The notes beneath the pieces were generated by a model. It saw nothing but the letters and a program-made list of their open reading frames with translations, was not told where the DNA came from and did not search any database. DNA of 57,063 nt from an uncultured Clostridia bacterium (GTDB taxonomy: Bacteria > Bacillota > Clostridia > Christensenellales > DTU072), in NCBI GenBank assembly GCA_944362765.1, contig CALVTP010000001.1, forward strand, positions 69,395 to 126,457, given 5' to 3'. The position numbers and the translations under genes are program-made. Positions 2,383-24,094 of the stretch are shown here, in pieces (within the stretch, counting starts at the first letter, position 1; the number at the start of each line of letters is the position of its first letter).

Positions 2383-5300
2383 TCAAGCCTTCTTCTTCAG
2401 AAGGTAGACGGTGAGGGAAACGACGATTATCAACGCGGCGCCACCGATAAGGATTATCATGAGGTAATTGGTTTCGGGCTCCTCTTTGACGAATGCGAAG
2501 GCGGAGACGGTGTCGGCGGAATCGATGGTGATGTAGCCGTTTTCGACTCCGACCAGTCTTACCGAATAGACGCCGTCCTGTTTGACGAGTACTTTGACGG
2601 TTTCGAGGTCTTTCAGCGCTTCGGGCACCTTGACGGTGATGGAAGTGGGCTCGTCGCTATCGCCGTTCGTGGTGATATTGAAGGCACGCACGATGGTTTC
2701 GTTGGAGGAGATGACGTCGTTCAAATCCTTGTCGTTTTTATCCATTTTTTCGACTTCGAGTACCGTTTCGGGGTTGAAGCCGTTCTCGTTATCGACGATT
2801 ATATCGATGCCGGACTCGTTGGAGACGAGGTTTTCGCGCTTGATGACGAGGCTGACCACGACATTTTCGGGGGCGTAGTAGTCTTCGGTTTCGCCAGCAG
2901 AAAGGGTGACGGTGTATCTGCCGACGTCGGTGAAGGAGTTGGTGTGGAAGAGTTTACCGTCCATTTCCCAGCTGAATATGACGTCGGCGCCGGAGTTTAC
3001 GGAGGCTTCGATATGGAAGGCTCCGCCGTTATAAATGAACTCGAAGGAGAGCGACGGGACGGAGATGGAAGCGTTGAACTTCATTACTTCGAAGGTGGCG
3101 TCGTCGTTGAAGGTGAGTTCGTAGTTGTCGTTCGACCAATCGGCGTAGAGCGGATATTTTTGTTTTCTTATACCGATGTCGGAGTAGATGGTTATGCCGA
3201 GAGAATCGCCCTCTATGACGCTGCCTTCGACTATTTCCCAGGCATTTTGTAGGACGGTGTAGTTTCCGTCGGCTCTCCATTCCGCATGCTGGTCGTAAAG
3301 GCGGACGGAGACGGGGCGCGGGGTAACGGAGTATTTGCCGTCCGTCACGGTGATTTCGTAGTTCGGGTTATCTTGGGCGTAGCCTTCTTTCAGGTAGATC
3401 TCGTACTCGCCGACGTTTTTGTTGTCGGGATCGGATTTTTGGAGTGTGACGACGAGGTTATCGCCTTCGGCAAGACCCATACCGCCTATGACCATCGTCA
3501 ATTCTTTCAGCGGGTCGCCGTAAACGGTGGTGGCGTCTTGGATATCGAGAGTGATCGTTCTCGGGGTGACGGTGTAGCGGACGTTCTCGGAATTTGCGCT
3601 GAATTCGATGATATAATCGGGATTCAGGCTTTCAAGCGTACCGAGGGTGACTCTGTACGGACCTACATCCGCGAATGTTCCCCTTGCGAGTTTCTCGTAA
3701 GAGAGCGCGCCGTTCAGGCTGAAACCTTCGGGAAGTTCGATTCCGTCCTCTCTCACGACTTCGTAGGGGATATAGGCGTCGGCGTCGCCGTAGACGGAAG
3801 AGGTTTCCTCGGGAGTGACGAGAAGGGTTATCTTATCGATATCGACGGTACCCGCGACGTAATCGATATCGTAGTTCGGGTTATTGTCGTTGGTGAGGCT
3901 GCCTTGAGGAATGGGAATGCCGTAACCTGCCTGCATCGGAAGGTCTCCCGGGAAGCCCGCCAATTCCTCGCCTTCCACTTTATTGTAGACGGTGTAGGTG
4001 AAGTAATCTGCGGCGGGGAAGCATTCGACTGCGGGGTCGAAGAAGAATTCGACTCCGCTCTTTGCCGAGCTTTCCACTCTGACGGGGCGGCGGGTGACGG
4101 TGAAGGTGGCGCCGACGAAGGCGACGTTATAGTTGTCGTTTACGAACTCTTCGGTTGCCACAATGCCGTAGCTTCCGACGTTCTTGGCGCCCGACTCGAT
4201 ACCGAGCGCGCCCGCCGTAGGCTCATCATCTCCGATAAAGCCTTCGGTAATGAAAGTCAATTCGGGTGTGTTGACGGAAAAGTCGCTGCCGTCATACACT
4301 TCGGAGGCGTCAACGGCAATGACCGTGGCGTCCTTTTTGGTGATTTCAAAGGCGGTTTCGCTGCCCGAGAGGCTTACGGAGTAGTTTTCATTCTCCGTCG
4401 AAACGCCGTTTATTAAGTAAGTTCCGACATCTTCGCCGGCATCTCTTTCGAATACGACCCGGAGCTGTTCGCCGTTCACTCCGTCGACGGTGGCGCTGAA
4501 ATCGGGATCTTCCTCCCCGTACACTTTGGTAAGCGTTTCAAGAAGCTCGGAGGGGTTGACAGCCGATTCGTAAGCGGTGACGGTGAACACCGTATCCGAT
4601 TCGGTGATGACAGCCGAGTAGTTGGCGGCGAATTCCGCCTCGAGTACAACCGATGTAAAGGCGTAGCGTCCTACGTTTTCGCCCTCTTCTCTTATGAACG
4701 AGAATTCGACGGTTTCCTCACCTTCGCCCGCTTGTGAGGCGGCAAAGACGGGATCGGCTTCGCCGTACACCTTAGTCAGGAGTTCAACGGGAAGCGTAGA
4801 AGCGGAGACCGCTATTTCGGCTTTGGTGATTTCGATGTCGAACACCTTGGGGGAGCCGGCGGAGACGCCGATGTAGTAGTTCGGGTTTTCGATGACGACA
4901 TAGACGGCAAGTTTATAACTTCCGACGGCAAAAATTTCGTCGACGGAGGAGCCTCCGAGTCCGATTTCCGCATATTCGGTGGCGCCGATGTCGTCTTTGC
5001 CGACTATACCCGAATATTCTATATCGATCGCGCGCGGGAACGCGTTATAGGTGAAGCTGTTGATTGTTCCGGAGGTAAGCTCCGTTTCGTCGAGCGATAC
5101 CTGTAACGTCAATTGCTTTACGCCTATTTCGACGCCGTTGCCGTTGCCGCCGATAGTTACGATATAGTAATCGGTTTCGAAGGAGTCGCCGTGGTAGTAG
5201 CTTTCGCCGTTCATCTCGTAGTAGTAGGGGTAGTTATTCACCTCGAGCATGCCCGCATCGGCGCCCGTCAGGAAGACCCCGATATCTTGGGTGAAGTCGC

Positions 5301-16816: not shown

Positions 16817-16845
16817 TTGCAAATTTTATTAAAACATTGTATTAT
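16817..16845 (+). promoter_or_regulatory. Promoter of the acyl-CoA-synthetase-like gene, predicted leaderless
   Basis: -35 TTGCAA (16817-16822), 17 bp spacer, -10 TATTAT (16840-16845), then six bases and ATG at 16852. There is no ribosome site before this ATG. Confidence 0.65.
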
Positions 16846-16851
16846 TTATAT

Positions 16852-18447
16852 ATGAATACGGATAAGGGTATATTCGCATATTTGTCCGATTGGCTCATTG
16901 AACCCGAAAAGACGTTGGTGGAATACTATTCGCGCTCCTTTTCGCAGGCTGAATTTCGCGATATAACTTTAAAAACGGCTGCTTTTTTGACGGAAAATCA
17001 TTTCGAAGGCAGCGCCGCGATAATGCTTCCGAATATCCCCGAAGCCTTTTTCTCGCTGTATGCCGCGTCCGCTGCGGGTATGGCGGCAAACCTCATTAAT
17101 CCCAGACTCCCCGCCGAAACGCTGCGCAGAATTTTAGCCAAAACCGGTTCAAAAGTCATTTTTTTATACGATAAATTGTTGCCGCGACACCGCGCGGTGC
17201 TTTCCGAACTCGGAGTAAAACCGATTCTATGTTCGCCTCTTTATTTCAGAAAAGGCTTTAAAACATTATATAAGCTACTGAAAGTTTCAAAAAATGAGGA
17301 TTATTTTGAAATAATCGACAATTTTTCGCCTATAACTCCTCTCCCGAGTAACGGAGACGCACCCGCCGCTTTTATCCACTCCGGCGGCACAACGGGCGAG
17401 CCGAAAAGCGTTGTGATCTCGGCAAAGGCATTGAACGAATTGGAGCGCGCCGTCGTAACGAGCGTCCACCCCGACCCGAAAACCATTCCTGAAAACGGCG
17501 GAATGCTTATGATGCTGCCGCTGTTCCACGGCTTCGGATTGGGCATAGCCGCTCACACGATCGCTTGCCATATAAGAGTGGTTATGGAGCCGCTTTTCAA
17601 GGCAAAAGAAGCCGCAAAACTCATAAAAAGGCATAAAATCACACATATTGCCGGCGTGCCGAGCATGTACAGAAAAATCTCGGAGGAACCTTCTTTCTCG
17701 GGGCGCGCGCTTTCCGCGATAATGCGCGTATTTTGTGGCGGAGATATATTGAGTTCCGAAGTGAAGCGAAAATTTGACGGAATATTAAAAGAATCAGGCT
17801 CCGAAGCCGAGATTTTAGAAGGTTACGGCTTGACAGAAACCGCTTCCGTCGTCACCGTCAACCCCGTCGGAATGGTACGCCCGCGTTCCCAAGGAAAGCC
17901 GTTGAACGGAAATCGCATAAAAATCACCGCAAACGGCGTTACTCTTCCTCCTATGACCGAAGGTGAAATCGAGGTGGCGCCCGTATCTCTGATGAGCTGT
18001 TATTACGGGGATCCCGAGGCTACTTCCAAAGCCGTCTACACCGATTCGGACGGCGTCGGCTGGCTGAAAACGGGAGACATGGGATATATCGATAACGACG
18101 GATACCTCTACTTTTCCGAGCGAATCAAGCGAACCATCAAAATCGGTGCAATAAATGTATTCCCCTGCGAAATAGAGTCAGTTTCGGCTACCGTAAACGG
18201 CATTTCGGGAGCCTGTGCCGCAAGAATGAAGGATATAAACGGAAAACCGTACATCAGACTTTACGTCGAAACGGAAGGGGGACGGGAACTCGACAATCAA
18301 TTAAAGAACGCCATCAAAAAGAAGATTCAGTCGTCGATAATGCAATATGCCGTCCCGAGGGAGATCGTGAGGGTTGACTCACTCCGGCTGACGCCATTAG
18401 GTAAGACTGATTTTTTATATTATGAATCTCTTCCCACAAAATTATAA
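16852..18447 (+). CDS. AMP-dependent acyl-CoA synthetase/ligase (ANL family)
   Basis: 531 residues, normal for the ANL superfamily. The P-loop-like motif IHSGGTTGEPKSV is at about residues 183-195, the adenylate motif EGYGLTETASVV at about 323-334, and GWLKTGDMGYIDNDGYLYFSERIKR (about 400-425) holds the hinge-domain aspartate and arginine. The catalytic lysine region is near the C-terminus (TPLGKTD). It should activate a carboxylic acid to acyl-AMP and then to a thioester; the acid is not clear. I set the start at 16852 (MNTDKGIF) and not the in-frame ATG at 16837, because that one lies before the -10 box. The last codons (YESLPTKL) come from the end of a repeat element that begins at 18424. 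Confidence 0.85.
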   Translation: MNTDKGIFAYLSDWLIEPEKTLVEYYSRSFSQAEFRDITLKTAAFLTENHFEGSAAIMLPNIPEAFFSLYAASAAGMAANLINPRLPAETLRRILAKTGSKVIFLYDKLLPRHRAVLSELGVKPILCSPLYFRKGFKTLYKLLKVSKNEDYFEIIDNFSPITPLPSNGDAPAAFIHSGGTTGEPKSVVISAKALNELERAVVTSVHPDPKTIPENGGMLMMLPLFHGFGLGIAAHTIACHIRVVMEPLFKAKEAAKLIKRHKITHIAGVPSMYRKISEEPSFSGRALSAIMRVFCGGDILSSEVKRKFDGILKESGSEAEILEGYGLTETASVVTVNPVGMVRPRSQGKPLNGNRIKITANGVTLPPMTEGEIEVAPVSLMSCYYGDPEATSKAVYTDSDGVGWLKTGDMGYIDNDGYLYFSERIKRTIKIGAINVFPCEIESVSATVNGISGACAARMKDINGKPYIRLYVETEGGRELDNQLKNAIKKKIQSSIMQYAVPREIVRVDSLRLTPLGKTDFLYYESLPTKL

Positions 18448-18548
18448 TAGATTTACTTTAATGCACGCATAAAAATTGTTTTTATTAAGAAAGTTCCTAT
18501 CCCGTACGAGCTTTTTTCATCAGGAGTAAAAGATGTGGGAAGAGATTC
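18424..18548. mobile_element. MITE-like element with 14 bp perfect terminal inverted repeats (copy 1)
   Basis: GAATCTCTTCCCAC (18424-18437) and its exact reverse complement (18535-18548) bound 125 bp. The left end lies inside the 3' end of the acyl-CoA-synthetase gene and supplies its last codons and stop. The interior is AT-rich, carries CCCGTACGAGCTTTTTTC and has no open frame. Related ends and interior occur at 19438-19566. Confidence 0.6.
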
Positions 18549-18587
18549 AAAACCGCGTCTTGAGGCATATTTCACGTCGCTTCCGGG
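18430..18587. repeat. 158 bp direct repeat, copy A
   Basis: Matches 18850-19007 with about 14 base changes and no gaps (constant offset of 420). It covers most of the MITE-like copy 1 plus the first part of the left inverted arm. Confidence 0.85.
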
Positions 18588-18783
18588 CAAAAGAAACAAG
18601 TTTCCCACAGGGGCTCCCTTGATTGTATGTCGATACTAATCGGCGTGAGTTTCGCCCGAAACCGCAGGCAATGATGCCTCACGAGGCATCATTGCCTGCT
18701 TCGCCGTAAACTAACGCAATCCCGACTTCTGTCTGTTCAAACAGCTTTTGCCTTTTGCTTGCCCCAATCCGCTCCGTATCTCG
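18553..18783 (-). repeat. Left arm of a ~235 bp inverted repeat with internal hairpin
   Basis: Its reverse complement matches 19199-19434 along nearly the full length, e.g. GCGGATTGGGGCAAGCAAAA and GCGTTAGTTT-x-CGGCGAAGCA. The parts flanking the central hairpin (18664-18699) are almost identical between arms, while the hairpin stem differs in sequence but still pairs in both. Confidence 0.8.
18664..18699. repeat. Perfect 17 bp hairpin inside the left arm
   Basis: GCAGGCAATGATGCCTC (18664-18680), AC, GAGGCATCATTGCCTGC (18683-18699). The matching place in the right arm (about 19284-19319) pairs GCAAC with GTTGC and GAGGC with GCCTC around a different sequence. Confidence 0.85.
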
Positions 18784-18849
18784 TTCTTTACACGCTCGTC
18801 AACATCTCAACGCCTTCATCTTACAGTGAGGGGTCTATTTGTTGTAGCC

Positions 18850-19007
18850 CTTCCCGCAAAATAGTAATAGATTTACTTTAATGCACGCATAAAAATTGTA
18901 CTTATTAAGAAAGTTTCTATCCCGTAGGGGCTTTTTTCATCAGGAGTAAAAGATGTGGGAAGAGATTCAAAACCGCGCCTTGAGGCATATTTCACGGCGC
19001 TTTCGTG
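18850..19007. repeat. 158 bp direct repeat, copy B
   Basis: Second copy of 18430-18587. Its left end is degenerate (CCCTTCCCGC), so the 14 bp terminal inverted repeat seen in copy A is damaged, while the right end (GTGGGAAGAGATTC, 18955-18968) is intact. Confidence 0.85.
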
Positions 19008-19198
19008 AAGGACAGGAGCGAAGCGACTGTCCGTTTTGGAGCCAACTCTTATAATACCGAAGAGAAGGAAGAGATATCGTCTTAGAAAGATAGATTTTGC
19101 GGGTTATTAAATATTCTTAGGTCAATTCTGCGGAGCTATAATGAATCAAAATACACGATAAAGTAAAGCGTAACAATGTTGACTATCGAGTAAACTAT

Positions 19199-19434
19199 GA
19201 GATACGTAGCGGATTGGGGCAAGCAAAAAGGCAAACGCTGTTTGAACAAACAAAAGCCTTGTTTGCGTTAGTTTGCGGCGAAGCAACCGGCGGAGGCGAT
19301 AAAGCCTCTGCTAGTTGCGATTTCGGGCGAAATTGGCGAAGGGCTGTATAGACATACGCTCCGAGGCAACTCCCGAAGGGAGGAAACTTGTTTCTTTCGC
19401 CCGAAAGCGCCGTGAAATATGCCCCAAGCCGCGG
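19199..19434 (+). repeat. Right arm of the ~235 bp inverted repeat
   Basis: Inverted counterpart of 18553-18783. It contains a weaker hairpin at about 19284-19319 in place of the perfect one in the left arm, and abuts the MITE-like copy 2 just as the left arm abuts copy 1. Confidence 0.8.
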
Positions 19435-19437
19435 GTA

Positions 19438-19566
19438 TATAATTTTCTTCCCGTCTCTATCCCTTCCTTATGAGAAAAACCTGTACGTGCGTACAAGCTT
19501 TTTTATAAGTGTCTGTTTTCGCGAGCTGAAAAGTTTCTGACTTTAAATTGCGGGAAGAAAATTATA
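19438..19566. mobile_element. MITE-like element with 16 bp perfect terminal inverted repeats (copy 2)
   Basis: TATAATTTTCTTCCCG (19438-19453) and its reverse complement (19551-19566) bound 129 bp. Size, the shared CTTCCC ends and an interior GTACAAGCTTTTTTAT tie it to the element at 18424-18548. There is no open frame. Confidence 0.6.
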
Positions 19567-19794
19567 AAAAAATATTTTCTAAGGCGATAGAAATTTCTTC
19601 GAAGCGGTATTATTGTGATAAAAGAGGGGAATTATAAAATGAAAAAAATACAGTACGCAGCGTATTTATGCTGCCTACATTAAAAAGAGTATATACACAA
19701 ACATTAAAGAATCAAAAAATCCTAAATTATTAAAATTTCAGCACGAAAACAAATATAAATCTCAAAACTAATTCAATTAATTTAACAAAAATTA

Positions 19795-19829: not shown

Positions 19830-20005
19830 GGACGGATACTTGATAAATTCTCGCTCCGTCAGCTCGAAGGGTGTTTGCCCTTGGGGCAAACACTTGGGCT
19901 ACGCACTTTTGCTGCTGCAAAAGTGCGCGCCCGCGCTCGCTCGAATCGTGGCAGAGTCGTTATTATCGTTGCTGTTTTACATCACAAGGTAGTCGCTTCG
20001 CTCCG
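19830..20005 (+). ncRNA. Candidate structured RNA / repeat A
   Basis: Starts about 7 bases after a good -10 box. It contains two perfect hairpins, GTGTTTGCCC/GGGCAAACAC (19871-19880 / 19884-19893) and CGCACTTTTGC/GCAAAAGTGCG (19902-19912 / 19917-19927). It ends in a 66 bp block (19940-20005) repeated at 20247-20312. No ribosome site or recognisable protein is present. A clear terminator is missing, so the 3' end is a guess. Confidence 0.4.
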
Positions 20006-20128: not shown

Positions 20129-20157
20129 TTGCATTTTTGGGTATAATGTGATATAAT
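20129..20157 (+). promoter_or_regulatory. Promoter in front of structured repeat B
   Basis: -35 TTGCAT (20129-20134), 17 bp, -10 TATAAT (20152-20157). The region upstream (TAATTTAACAAAAA) matches the one before repeat A. Confidence 0.65.
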
Positions 20158-20163
20158 GTACTG

Positions 20164-20345
20164 GGATAGAGTTGCGATTACCGCCGAGGGGCGGAGGCTT
20201 TGGTGTGCGCACTTTGCCAGGGGCTAAGCTGCGCGGCGGGTGTCTGCTTGAATCATGGCGGAGTCGTGAGTATCGTGGCTGTTCTACATCACAAGGTAGT
20301 CGCTTCGCTCCGGGAAGACTAGACCCACCCAACCGCCCACAAGGT
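20164..20345 (+). ncRNA. Candidate structured RNA / repeat B
   Basis: Contains a CCGCC-x4-GGCGG hairpin near its start and the 66 bp block (20247-20312) shared with repeat A with about 9 changes. A third partial copy of CACAAGG-T-x-G-x-CGCTTCGC follows at about 20339-20360. No protein signal. Boundaries are approximate. Confidence 0.4.
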
Positions 20346-20767: not shown

Positions 20768-23700
20768 ATGAAAAGAAAGTTTTCGCTCTTTGTAACGATC
20801 GTGGTTTGTCTCCTGATTGCAGCAGGCATTCTTTCCGCGTGCAACGAAGGGGAGAAAAAGATAGTTTCCATCGATTTTGCCGATGGAGAATGGCAAACCA
20901 ATTACTATTTGGGGGAGGTTTTCAAACCTTGCGCCGCTACCGTTACATATGAGGACGGCTCCACCGAAACGGTTGCCGTTATCCCCGAAATGGTAAAAGG
21001 TTTCGATACTTCGAAGCTCGGAAATTACAATATCGAAATTACGATAAACGGCGTTACAAAGGTAATGACGATTACCGTCGTTGAGAAGGGCGAGGAAGCG
21101 CACGTCCACTCGATGGAGTTGACAGCAGCTAAGGAAGCAACTTGTACGGAAGGCGGCAACAATGCCTACTATCATTGCTCCGGTTGCAATAAGTACTTCA
21201 AGGACATAGAGGGCGAAGAAGAGACCACCGTCGAAGCGGAGACTATCCCCGCCGCGGGGCACGTTATCGTAGACGGAGTGTGTACTGCGTGTGGGGAATT
21301 AATTTATACCGAAGGCTTGGAGTATACGCTCAGCAGCGATGAAAGCTATTACATTGTTACAGGTATCGGCACCGCCTCCGGTGATATCATTATCCCCGAT
21401 ACCCATGAAGGGCTGTCGGTTAAAGAAATAGGAAGCGCAGCATTTATTAATTGCACCGAGCTGACGTCGGTAGAGATTCCGGCAAGCGTGAGCAAGATAC
21501 AAAATGGAAGCTATAGTGTCGGTGAAACCGGAGCAGCTATAAATTTCGAAGGCGCTTTTTTTGGATGCGTCAATCTTGAAAGCGTCACTTTTGTCGAAGG
21601 CAGCGAGTTATCCGGCATCGGGGATTTTGCATTCGCATATTGTAGCAGCCTTAAGTCGATAGATGTTCCCGATACTGTCACTAATATCGGAGAAGGGGCG
21701 TTCTTCTTGTCCAGCACCCTGACATCGATAGAGATTCCCGCAGGGGTCACTAGTATCGGAGTAGGGGCGTTTGGCACTTGCAGCAGTCTTGCAAGCGTTA
21801 CCTTTGCCGAAGGAAGCCGGTTGACAAGTATCGGAAGCGGTGCGTTCTCCGGTTGCAGCAGGCTGACATCGATAGAGATCCCCGCAGGAGTCACTAGTAT
21901 CGGAGGCTCTGCGTTCTACGGATGCAGCAGCCTGACATCGATTGAAATCCCCGCCGGGGTCACAAGTATCGGAGACTATGCGTTCCAGGGCTGCAGCAAT
22001 CTTGAAAGCGTCACCTTTGCCGAAGGAAGTCAATTGACTAGTATGGGAGAGGGTACGTTCTTCGGATGCAGCAGCCTGACATCAATACATATCCCCGCAG
22101 GGGTCACAAGTATCGGAGACTATGCGTTCAACGGCTGCAGCAATCTTGAAAGCGTCACCTTTGCCGAAGGAAGCCGGTTGACTAGTATCGGAAGCTATGC
22201 GTTCTACAGATGCAGCAGCCTTACCACCATCAGCTTTGCCGAAGAAAGTGAATTGACTATTATCGGAAGCTATGCGTTCCAGGATTGCAGCAGCCTTAAA
22301 TCGATAGAGATCCCCGCAGGGGTGACTAGTATAGGAAGCGATGCGTTCTACGGATGCAGCAATCTTGAAAGTGTTACCTTTGCCGAAGGAAGTCAATTGA
22401 CTAGTATCGGAGGCTATGCTTTCTATTTTTGCAGCAATCTGACGTCAATAGAGATTCCCTCAAGGGTCACCGGTATCGGAGACGATGCGTTCGGGGTATG
22501 TTATCCCACCATCGTTTACAATTATTCCGATTTAGAGATAACGGCGGGAAGCAGCGACCATGGCGGTGTCGCATATTATGCAGAAGTGGTGTTGACCGAA
22601 GACAATCTTGCCCATGTAAAAGATGAAAACGGCTATGTGACATACACCGATGGCGAAGAAGTGTTGCTTCTAGGCTATCTCGGAAGCGAGAAGGATATAG
22701 TTATACCCGAAGGCGTCACGAGAATAGCAAAGTATGCTTTCGACGGGGATGATATCGTTTCGGTCACATTGCCTGAAAGTTTAACTGAAATAGGAGATTA
22801 TGCATTTGAATTTTGTTATACCTTGAAAGAAGTTTACAATAATTCCGCCTTGGATATAACTGCGGGGCGCTATGAGCACGGATATGTGGCTTACTACGTC
22901 GTTAAGGTTCATAACTCTAGTGAAAGCGAAAGCATATTCGATGATGAAAGTGGATTTGCAATAGTTGACGGGGTTTTATATGGTTATAGAGGTTCGGAGA
23001 CGGTTATAATTATACCCGATATCGTGACAAGCATTGCAGATTATGCTTTCTACGGTAACAACTATATAATTTCCGTTTCGATCCCCGCCGGGGTCACAAG
23101 TATCGGAGAGTCTGCGTTCTATAAATGCAGCAATCTTGAAAGCGTCACCTTTGCAGAAGGAAGTCAATTGACTAGTATCGGAAGCGATGCGTTCCGGGAT
23201 TGTATCAACCTTAAATCGATAGAGATCCCCGCAGGGGTCACTAGTATCGAAGGCTGGATGTTCTACTATTGCAGCAGTCTTCAGTCGATAGAAATCCCCG
23301 CAGGGGTGACTAGTATCGGATTCGCTGCCTTCTCCGGATGCAGCAATCTGAATACGGTATATTACGCCGGCAGCATAGAAAATTGGTTTGATATTGAGTT
23401 TGGTTGGAACAATGGTTCCAATCCGTTATGTAACGGTGCCGATTTATATATCGGCGGAGAATTGGTGACCGCAGTGGTAGTACCCGAGAGCGTTACGGCA
23501 ATAGGCAATTGTCAATTTGCTGGTTGCACAAGCTTAACCTCGATAACCATCCATTCCGGGGTCACCGGTATCGGAAGCTCTGCGTTCGAGGATTGCAGCA
23601 GTCTTGCAAGCGTTACCTTTGGCGAAGGAAGTGAGTTGACTAGTATCGGAAGCGATGCGTTCTCGGATTGCAGCAGCTTGACATCGATAGAGATTCCCGC

Positions 23701-24094
23701 TGGCGTCACCGGTATCGGAAACTTGGCGTTCTACGGATGCATCAACCTGACATCGATAGAGATCCCCGCTGGCGTCACCGGTATCGGAACCTTGGCGTTC
23801 TTCGGATGCAGCAGCCTGACATCGATAGAGATCCCCGCAGAGGTCACAAGTATCGGAGATTGGGCGTTCCACGCCTGCAGCAATCTTGAAAGCGTCACCT
23901 TTGCCGAAGGAAGTCAATTGACAAGTATCGGAAGCTATGCGTTCCAGGTTTGCAGCAGTCTTGAAACCATTTACTACAACGGCACAGAGGAGCAATGGAA
24001 CGCGATAGAAAAGGGTACGGATTGGGACTATGGTTGCGGAAACTATGATGTTGTATTCCTTGGAGACGCGGGCGCCGAGGGCGGAGAGGGGTAA
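20768..24094 (+). CDS. BspA-like leucine-rich-repeat surface lipoprotein
   Basis: 1108 residues. A lipoprotein signal ends GILSAC (Cys 25), so the protein should be lipid-anchored outside. Residues about 35-110 look like a bacterial Ig-like domain (VSIDFADGEWQTNYYLGE...YNIEITINGV). A cysteine-containing spacer follows (ATCTEGGNNAYYHCSGC...CTACGE, about 125-180). The rest is BspA-type LRR_5 repeats of about 23 residues (LTSIEIPAGVTSIG-x-x-AF-x-GCS), in blocks separated by linkers at about 580-640, 700-750 and 870-910. The C-terminus (TIYYNGTEEQWNAIEKG) is typical of the family; there is no C-terminal anchor. The family is linked to adhesion in gut and oral bacteria; the ligand here is unknown. 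GGAGGAG precedes the start, and a terminator follows at 24150. Confidence 0.9.
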   Translation: MKRKFSLFVTIVVCLLIAAGILSACNEGEKKIVSIDFADGEWQTNYYLGEVFKPCAATVTYEDGSTETVAVIPEMVKGFDTSKLGNYNIEITINGVTKVMTITVVEKGEEAHVHSMELTAAKEATCTEGGNNAYYHCSGCNKYFKDIEGEEETTVEAETIPAAGHVIVDGVCTACGELIYTEGLEYTLSSDESYYIVTGIGTASGDIIIPDTHEGLSVKEIGSAAFINCTELTSVEIPASVSKIQNGSYSVGETGAAINFEGAFFGCVNLESVTFVEGSELSGIGDFAFAYCSSLKSIDVPDTVTNIGEGAFFLSSTLTSIEIPAGVTSIGVGAFGTCSSLASVTFAEGSRLTSIGSGAFSGCSRLTSIEIPAGVTSIGGSAFYGCSSLTSIEIPAGVTSIGDYAFQGCSNLESVTFAEGSQLTSMGEGTFFGCSSLTSIHIPAGVTSIGDYAFNGCSNLESVTFAEGSRLTSIGSYAFYRCSSLTTISFAEESELTIIGSYAFQDCSSLKSIEIPAGVTSIGSDAFYGCSNLESVTFAEGSQLTSIGGYAFYFCSNLTSIEIPSRVTGIGDDAFGVCYPTIVYNYSDLEITAGSSDHGGVAYYAEVVLTEDNLAHVKDENGYVTYTDGEEVLLLGYLGSEKDIVIPEGVTRIAKYAFDGDDIVSVTLPESLTEIGDYAFEFCYTLKEVYNNSALDITAGRYEHGYVAYYVVKVHNSSESESIFDDESGFAIVDGVLYGYRGSETVIIIPDIVTSIADYAFYGNNYIISVSIPAGVTSIGESAFYKCSNLESVTFAEGSQLTSIGSDAFRDCINLKSIEIPAGVTSIEGWMFYYCSSLQSIEIPAGVTSIGFAAFSGCSNLNTVYYAGSIENWFDIEFGWNNGSNPLCNGADLYIGGELVTAVVVPESVTAIGNCQFAGCTSLTSITIHSGVTGIGSSAFEDCSSLASVTFGEGSELTSIGSDAFSDCSSLTSIEIPAGVTGIGNLAFYGCINLTSIEIPAGVTGIGTLAFFGCSSLTSIEIPAEVTSIGDWAFHACSNLESVTFAEGSQLTSIGSYAFQVCSSLETIYYNGTEEQWNAIEKGTDWDYGCGNYDVVFLGDAGAEGGEG

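Follow-up and report, generated by a model that had tools for sequence, protein, structure and literature searches.

Origin of the inverted arms

In an uncultured Clostridia bacterium, two arms of about 235 bp face one another as reverse complements, and at the centre of each stands a hairpin whose sequence differs from that of the other. The locus raises the question of what these arms are and how a stem can change its sequence while its flanks stay the same. We addressed it in a window of 57,063 nucleotides (the whole stretch of DNA analysed, to which all window coordinates refer) from a draft genome of 1.71 Mb in 68 contigs. An initial annotation had read the two centres as the replacement of both strands of a stem under selection on structure, and had proposed a structured RNA, a recombination site folded as single-stranded DNA, or the end of a mobile element.

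The inverted arms are real. Inverted-repeat blocks I1, I2, I3, and I5 (74% to 91% complementary) run along 18553-18816 and 19165-19434, and blastn joins 18503-18805 with 19176-19487 in a single alignment at 73%. The flanks named in the initial annotation are found in the window sequence, as is its perfect 17 bp hairpin, here called A (18664-18699, plus strand, block I9), in which 18664-18680 and 18683-18699 pair at 17 of 17 positions. The unrelated centre of the other arm (hairpin B with its flanks, 19281-19322, minus strand, from the module map and hairpin comparison) also folds as described, being paired except at 2 of the first 15 positions. The class A arm folds at -78.8 against a mean of -57.4 (z -5.2) and the class B arm at -93.3 against a mean of -67.1 (z -6.2), each beating 200 of 200 dinucleotide shuffles. 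Because, in its predicted fold, the B arm is closed by a stem of GCGGCTTGGGGCA... against ...TGCCCCAATCCGC, we treat the stretch of about 235 nt as a single closed and branched domain (D2). This folded module, a member of a genome-wide repeat family, makes up the two arms, once in direct and once in inverted orientation.

The window array starts inside the 3' end of an open reading frame for an acyl-CoA-synthetase-like protein (16837-18447, plus strand, from the ORF list; an AMP-ligase by inspection), whose final codons lie within the first M1 stem and whose last residues and stop are supplied by the element. The first copy of the M1 domain (18420-18552, plus strand, block I7), an outer stem GAATCTCTTCCCACA/TGTGGGAAGAGATTC enclosing a terminator-like hairpin, is followed on the same strand by class A D2, the first arm (18553-18783), by linker f (18771-18842), which joins D2 to the following M1, by M1 copy 2 (18848-18968), by the start of a second D2, of which there is the closing-stem strand only (18972-19001), and by M3, the left half of the terminal long hairpin of the array (19009-19102, block I6). 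On the minus strand follow an inverted copy of linker f (19165-19210), class B D2, the second arm (19199-19434), and M1 copy 3, TATAATTTTCTTCCCGC...GCGGGAAGAAAATTATA (19438-19566, block I10). M4, the right half of the long hairpin (19567-19615, plus strand, block I6), completes the layout. These assignments come from the module map, joined by inverted-repeat blocks for the first and third M1, M3, M4, and both D2 arms, and by folding for the arms. Array start within an upstream frame, recurrence at many loci, and an arm that is one repeating domain of a larger unit all lie beyond what the initial annotation had seen.

The window ORF list contains no frame of at least 80 amino acids between 18447 and 20072, and shorter open stretches are frame-shifted between the copies compared (by eye), so a protein-coding role for the arms was rejected. 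A second palindrome-rich repeat (GTGTTTGCCCTTGGGGCAAACACTTGGGCTACGCACTTTTGC...) lies downstream of the array at 19841-19995 and 20157-20345, and recurs downstream of the GAPDH array (L036, about 3560-3900; L codes denote sequence stretches around repeats, G codes the genomes of other species). It may represent a further repeat family accompanying the arrays. Also downstream, at 20768-24094, is a large leucine-rich-repeat ORF (BspA-like by inspection).

A genome-wide family of modular arrays

The 1 kb of the window gave 180 blast matches in its own genome, and among the matches listed at least nine are over 700 nt long with 80% to 93% identity, the window itself excluded. Core sites with at most one mismatch number 161 in this genome, compared with 3 for the reversed pattern. 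We examined 34 stretches around matches in the same genome and eight further ones. Along an array the module order is M1, D2, linker f, M1, with the mutually pairing M3 and M4 last; tandem units are spaced about 400 bp apart, and many arrays are closed by the long M3...M4 hairpin. An inverted unit stands between M3 and M4 in the window and at L023, L024, L025, and L027, and this placement is the reason for the inverted arms of the window. Terminal inverted repeats were looked for and found, with M1 bounded by TTTTCTTCCCGC and GCGGGAAGAAAA and M3 pairing with M4 at 74% (19051-19088 with 19576-19613 in the window). The TTTT/AAAA part of the M1 ends is unpaired in 26 to 28 of 67 copies, mostly in inner units. 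In a check for target duplication, the flanks of the arrays proved to be inverted rather than direct copies, and no direct target duplication was recognised at the arrays.

Known RNA families were rejected as the identity of the arrays, since Rfam 15 at gathering scores returned one tRNA only in the window, with no family match in the array, and a search of eight array loci at E values up to 5 gave, inside the arrays, only matches far below the gathering scores. A TPP riboswitch (L032, 1689-1780) and a large SRP RNA (L037, 3307-3471) each adjoin an array.

Exchange of hairpins and two-sided changes

The arm is covered by 27 of 99 merged matches, from which the hairpin classes were drawn. Class A comprises 13 copies with 6 sequences and class B 14 copies with 11 sequences, and their flanks are common to both. 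Among these copies there are no random centres, yet folding is not perfect throughout: one of the 13 A copies (L022) has three mispaired positions, the others being fully paired apart from G-U, and most B sequences carry one or two mispairs. Pairs 4, 6, 7, and 10 of class B each occur in two different Watson-Crick forms. One copy (L044) combines the outer part of B with the A hairpin, and the reciprocal chimera, with the outer part of A and the B hairpin, is found at L021 (2078-2312). From these reciprocal chimeras and the repeated A and B copies it follows that the stem was replaced by exchange between subfamilies that recombine at their common flanks. The difference between A and B is therefore not compensation in place, and the replacement of both stem strands at one site that the initial annotation envisaged is not upheld.

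A third class, C, occupies the same slot as A and B. Its 18 copies show two-sided changes at 9 of 44 pairs (shuffle mean 4.8, reached in 0 of 500 shuffles) and in 32 cells (11.5 in shuffles, 0 of 500), for a structure predicted from the same alignment; further pair types are not in excess, with 497 of 500 shuffles as high, and four of five measures lie above the controls. The class C spacers of L027 (2985-3400), L043 (2515-2920), and L050 (2650-3060) have a common insert of about 170 to 190 nt, with a 45-codon open frame on the opposite strand (by eye).

M1 consists of a junction and an outer stem around a terminator-like hairpin with a T run. Over 67 copies, including those of G001, G005, and G006, two-sided changes are present at 28 of 39 pairs (shuffle mean 11.7, 0 of 500) and in 108 cells (24.5 in shuffles, 0 of 500), the structure having been drawn up from these same copies; with the structure slid by one to three columns, 16 to 19 pairs and 25 to 48 cells were counted. 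Two-sided changes support the structure of B, class C, and M1, and to that extent structure is kept while sequence changes. Selection as the sole cause does not follow, because template switching can also make or repair perfect stems, and here the stems copy adjacent coding sequence. By its form M1 appears to resemble an intrinsic terminator, and it may descend from a native one, possibly an older terminator type of the genus.

Array starts at stop codons

At dozens of places in the genome, arrays sit mostly exactly at the ends of protein genes. At the typical array start, the first M1 opens with ...TAATTTTCTTCCCGC and reads away from the gene. The TAA of TAATTTTCTTCCCGC is the in-frame stop of a frame of at least 60 codons at 31 of 42 array starts, compared with 13 of 95 other TAATTTT sites in the same DNA; the 42 starts are a manual selection of outermost 5' copies, without inner or inverted units, and the gene ends are open-frame calls rather than annotated genes. 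All 31 exact junctions, three of which are on short or ambiguous frames (L045, 68 codons; L048, 65; L106, 112 with a longer rival frame), use TAA, while the 123 long frames there end in TAA (73), TGA (36), or TAG (14), array genes included. The other 11 of the 42 starts are inexact. Frames read through in the window, L022, and L044 and stop inside M1, 19 to 26 nt on; arrays begin 4, 7, 14, 18, and 22 nt behind the stop at L032, L047, L041, L021, and L046, respectively, and 140 and 146 nt behind it at L103 and L049; the end of the closest long frame lies 25 nt downstream of the array start at L042.

Family searches with 20 upstream proteins gave matches for 14. Those above curated cut-offs at exact junctions are [FeFe] hydrogenase (L031), NADP-glutamate dehydrogenase (L033), GMP synthase (L038), and pyruvate:ferredoxin oxidoreductase (L039). 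HisIE (L032), DnaA (L046), and FolD (L022, below the cut-off) precede junctions that are not exact, and upstream GroEL, GAPDH, single-strand-binding protein, and L7/L12 were named by inspection.

Stems complementary to the host gene

In about half of the arrays tested, the outer hairpin holds a backward copy of the end of the preceding gene. The right arm of M1 reads GCGGGAAGAAAA, then TTA, and then often the reverse complement of the last codons of the host gene. In 29 arrays, with flanks and arms entered by hand and L022 scored 0 through a one-base offset, the best match to the array's own gene averages 6.86 nt, compared with 3.33 nt after permutation (4.52 in the largest of 10,000 permutations), and matches of at least 7 nt occur in 14 of the 29 but in at most 6 in any permutation. 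The longest match, 18 nt in the guaA array, covers the stop and the five codons TIEWE; several first units have a match of only 3 to 5 nt. At the far right end of the groEL array, ten bases (TTAATACATA) are complementary to the gene end. The length of the complement rises with that of the insert between the M1 core and D2 (rho 0.57, P 0.0013, 29 of 31 first units), a correlation that is partly built in, as a match can hardly pass the insert into fixed sequence.

Inner units of L025, L031, L034, L050, and the window carry the same gene-specific arm despite a different left arm of their own, pointing to duplication within the array. In M1 copy 2 of the window, AGATTC, the complement of the upstream gene end, is present again in the right arm.

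Sister species and distribution

Orthologues of GroEL (resolved at 12 loci, all but 3 of 15) and GAPDH (at 8, all but 2 of 10) stop at the equivalent residue, and the core sequence is missing from what follows; one resolved GAPDH locus ends 7 nt behind the stop. For 14 further genes, sister ends have the same or a neighbouring last residue (TAA 15, TGA 5, TAG 3) in the 23 of 29 that could be resolved, and TTTTCTTCCCGC stands behind the gene in 0 of these 23 (counted from the listing; the other 6 of 29 gave no resolved end). In the window's own gene, resolved in five of six orthologues, ...YYES/YYEA/FYEK is common and the sequences then diverge; unlike its orthologues, the window protein continues LPTKL*, residues read from the element.

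A search of 46 orthologue stretches with the M1 model returned 14 matches at E values of up to 1. Behind rplL of G006 the full model matches from the stop codon (43 bits, E 3e-6), and behind rplL of G005 its inner hairpin does (E 9e-5). Further G005 matches include a weak one at PFOR (E 0.02-0.03) and one on the minus strand of a stretch without a resolved gene end (L157, E 2e-6), and nothing at seven GroEL and five GAPDH sister loci reached E 0.1. The native terminator region behind rplL resembles the inner hairpin of M1 in both L130 (G005) and L131 (G006). Most of the ends examined lack M1, but rplL at least, with its M1-like structure, does not count as empty.

At GroEL and GAPDH, the two loci compared, a search beyond the array did not recover the native 3' sequence. 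At GroEL similarity resumes about 600 bp past the array, and at GAPDH the contig ends some 500 bp past it. Since this sequence was not found at either locus and no target duplication was recognised, the arrays do not have the form of a clean insertion.

Blast matches are confined to 4 of 38 genomes, all of one genus (the own genome, G001, G005, and G006). Among 297 genomes of the order, the M1 covariance model R2, which includes the outer stem, has matches in 4 (own, G001, G006, and G009), and these too belong to a single genus. Strict filters applied and at most 11 candidates were scored per genome, so that divergent members may escape; G005, found by blast, was missed. G001 and G009 have M1-like elements 1 to 3 nt behind stop codons, with unrelated outer stems. 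Behind the same gene (L113 and L119), the 262 nt element of these two genomes has one difference, compared with 14 in the final 180 coding bases, reflecting either strong constraint or recent transfer. An exact-pattern scan of genome contigs returned two records, one of them equal in length to contig 1 of G001, CALVUD010000001.1 (own-genome records were possibly excluded there), and a scan of viral contigs returned 0 records.

Search for a mover

The Y1_Tnp search, covering the sole transposase family sought, found one copy that is open at a contig start and one with an internal stop. The element of this Y1 enzyme looks IS200-like and its ends look unlike M1 (both by eye), on which ground IS200/Y1 was rejected as the mover; the Y1 family thus yielded no transposase whose ends match. 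In a close copy in G001 (L055, 4600-5650), an element of IS200 type (by eye) occupies the position of the central hairpin. For reverse transcriptase, PF00078 (RVT_1) had no match in the own genome (92% complete), while the same search was positive in 3 of 14 control genomes, and retro-transposition by the organism's own reverse transcriptase (group II intron or retron) was rejected.

Comparison with known repeats

YPAL elements of enterobacteria, described by De Gregorio et al. in 2006, reportedly cluster just behind stop codons. The comparisons that follow draw on excerpts of the sources cited. YPAL/RU-2 and ERIC, comparable to the present arrays, are mobile repeats said to be expressed with the upstream gene and possibly to affect its RNA, and YPAL targets span or adjoin dyad symmetry (PMC2229807). 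YPAL makes target duplications of 3 to 26 bp, whereas none was recognised here, and the excerpted account does not mention a gene-specific stem for YPAL or ERIC (PMC2229807). BOX elements of Streptococcus pneumoniae, of 67 to 637 bp, are also modular, with variable tandem inner modules and predicted stem-loops (PMC3049150); the arrays here share the variable inner repeats but differ in their unit of about 400 bp, three exchangeable folded cores, start at a stop codon in most arrays, and right arm that copies the host gene. REPINs and BIMEs with RAYT are likewise many-copy hairpin repeats and miniature mobile DNA (PMC3116915), but REPs measure 20 to 40 bp (PMC3733652), compared with about 235 bp for D2, and the sole Y1 enzyme found here is IS200-like by eye, with ends unlike M1.

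The inner hairpin and T run of M1 are shared with intrinsic terminators, and similar hairpins occur behind rplL in G005 and G006. Unlike a terminator, M1 has an outer stem extendable into coding sequence, and D2 stands behind it in tandem units. Template-switch (quasi-palindrome) mutation resembles the present case in that reverse-complement copying creates or mends stems (PMC8794818, in excerpt), but it is a mutational process rather than an element, and here would have to act repeatedly at one fixed gene-end hairpin. In open-licence literature, covered by titles and abstract openings, there was no report of repeats that combine an exact junction at stop codons with stems specific to the gene.

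Explanations for the arrays

Of the three identities proposed in the initial annotation, a mobile element fits best. We consider it somewhat more probable than an even chance that the arms are D2 domains of a non-autonomous mobile hairpin repeat at gene ends, which brings a stop and a terminator and whose stems are completed by fold-back copying. This reading builds on the stop-codon position, the lack of the core in those sister gene ends that were checked, the two-sided changes, the gene-specific arms, and the chimeras. From these we infer mobility, tolerance through the element's own stop and terminator, fold-back copying, and array growth by duplication and exchange. The element would consist almost wholly of hairpins, with the unit M1, D2 (A, B, or C), and linker f in tandem, and its insertion would be tolerated since it carries its own stop codon and terminator. 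Lengthening of the right arm would come from fold-back synthesis (template switching): with its GCGGGAAGAAAA end folded back on the left arm, a strand would be extended along a small number of codons before rejoining the element at CCGCG. Arrays may grow by tandem duplication and exchange between loci, and A and B hairpins may swap via their common flanks. Excerpts of published work describe template switching as able to create and mend perfect stems (PMC8794818) and, in yeast, connect mutations of this kind with RNA-DNA hybrids where transcription is strong (PMC3820800), a link that would fit the gene-end position.

The most serious rival, which we nevertheless judge unlikely, is that the arrays are functional structured RNAs, with M1 a genus-specific 3'-UTR terminator, M1 and D2 setting the ends or stability of mRNA, and RNA-structure selection accounting for the stems. 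A terminator-like hairpin directly behind stop codons, two-sided changes with strong folding, and the M1-like elements that follow stops in G001 and G009, their outer stems unrelated, all speak for it, as does the better conservation, behind one gene of these two, of 262 nt of element (1 difference) than of the last 180 coding bases (14). The M1-like matches behind rplL of G006 and G005 strengthen it and weaken the mobile reading; M1 could have been inherited vertically as a kind of terminator and have spread later. Against it, no RNA role is evident for gene-specific stems of up to 18 nt, the bulk of the array lies past the first T run, similarity between loci of up to 93% amounts to recent copying, and no Rfam family reaches its own threshold inside the arrays. 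Distinctly less probable again is a mobile element inserting by a route tied to translation termination or to mRNA 3' ends, joining behind the last sense codon, replacing the native stop and 3' UTR, and writing the reverse complement of the gene into its own stem.

Template switching and gene conversion alone could give the identity of the stems and the A/B replacement, leaving the structures functionless. The coding-sequence complement makes up the extra length between M1 core and D2, and excerpted work has perfect hairpins both made and mended in this way (PMC8794818), but M1 hairpins vary on both sides over 67 copies and the precise stop-codon position would require a further process; we find this slightly more doubtful than an insertion coupled to termination. 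We give very little credence to D2 as an attC-like recombination site, folded as single-stranded DNA, with arrays built by site-specific insertion of small circles. Tandem units of about 400 bp in the same orientation, each with one folded module, would suit such a site, whereas locus-specific right arms common to the units of one array (L025, L031, L034, L050, and the window) indicate local duplication, and the window's array has no ORF of at least 80 amino acids.

The position of the repeats makes the way in which they find gene ends directly testable, since DNA-level insertion has no obvious means of stop-codon recognition, yet 31 of 42 starts are exact to the base. The gene-specific stems are many natural replicates of reverse-complement copying beside conserved coding sequence, and could help tell RNA-structure selection from mutational hairpin repair, a difficulty of covariation tests. 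For the organism itself, the repeats lie behind core genes such as groEL, gapdh, gdh, guaA, and rplL; should M1 act as a terminator, these genes would have been given a new one.
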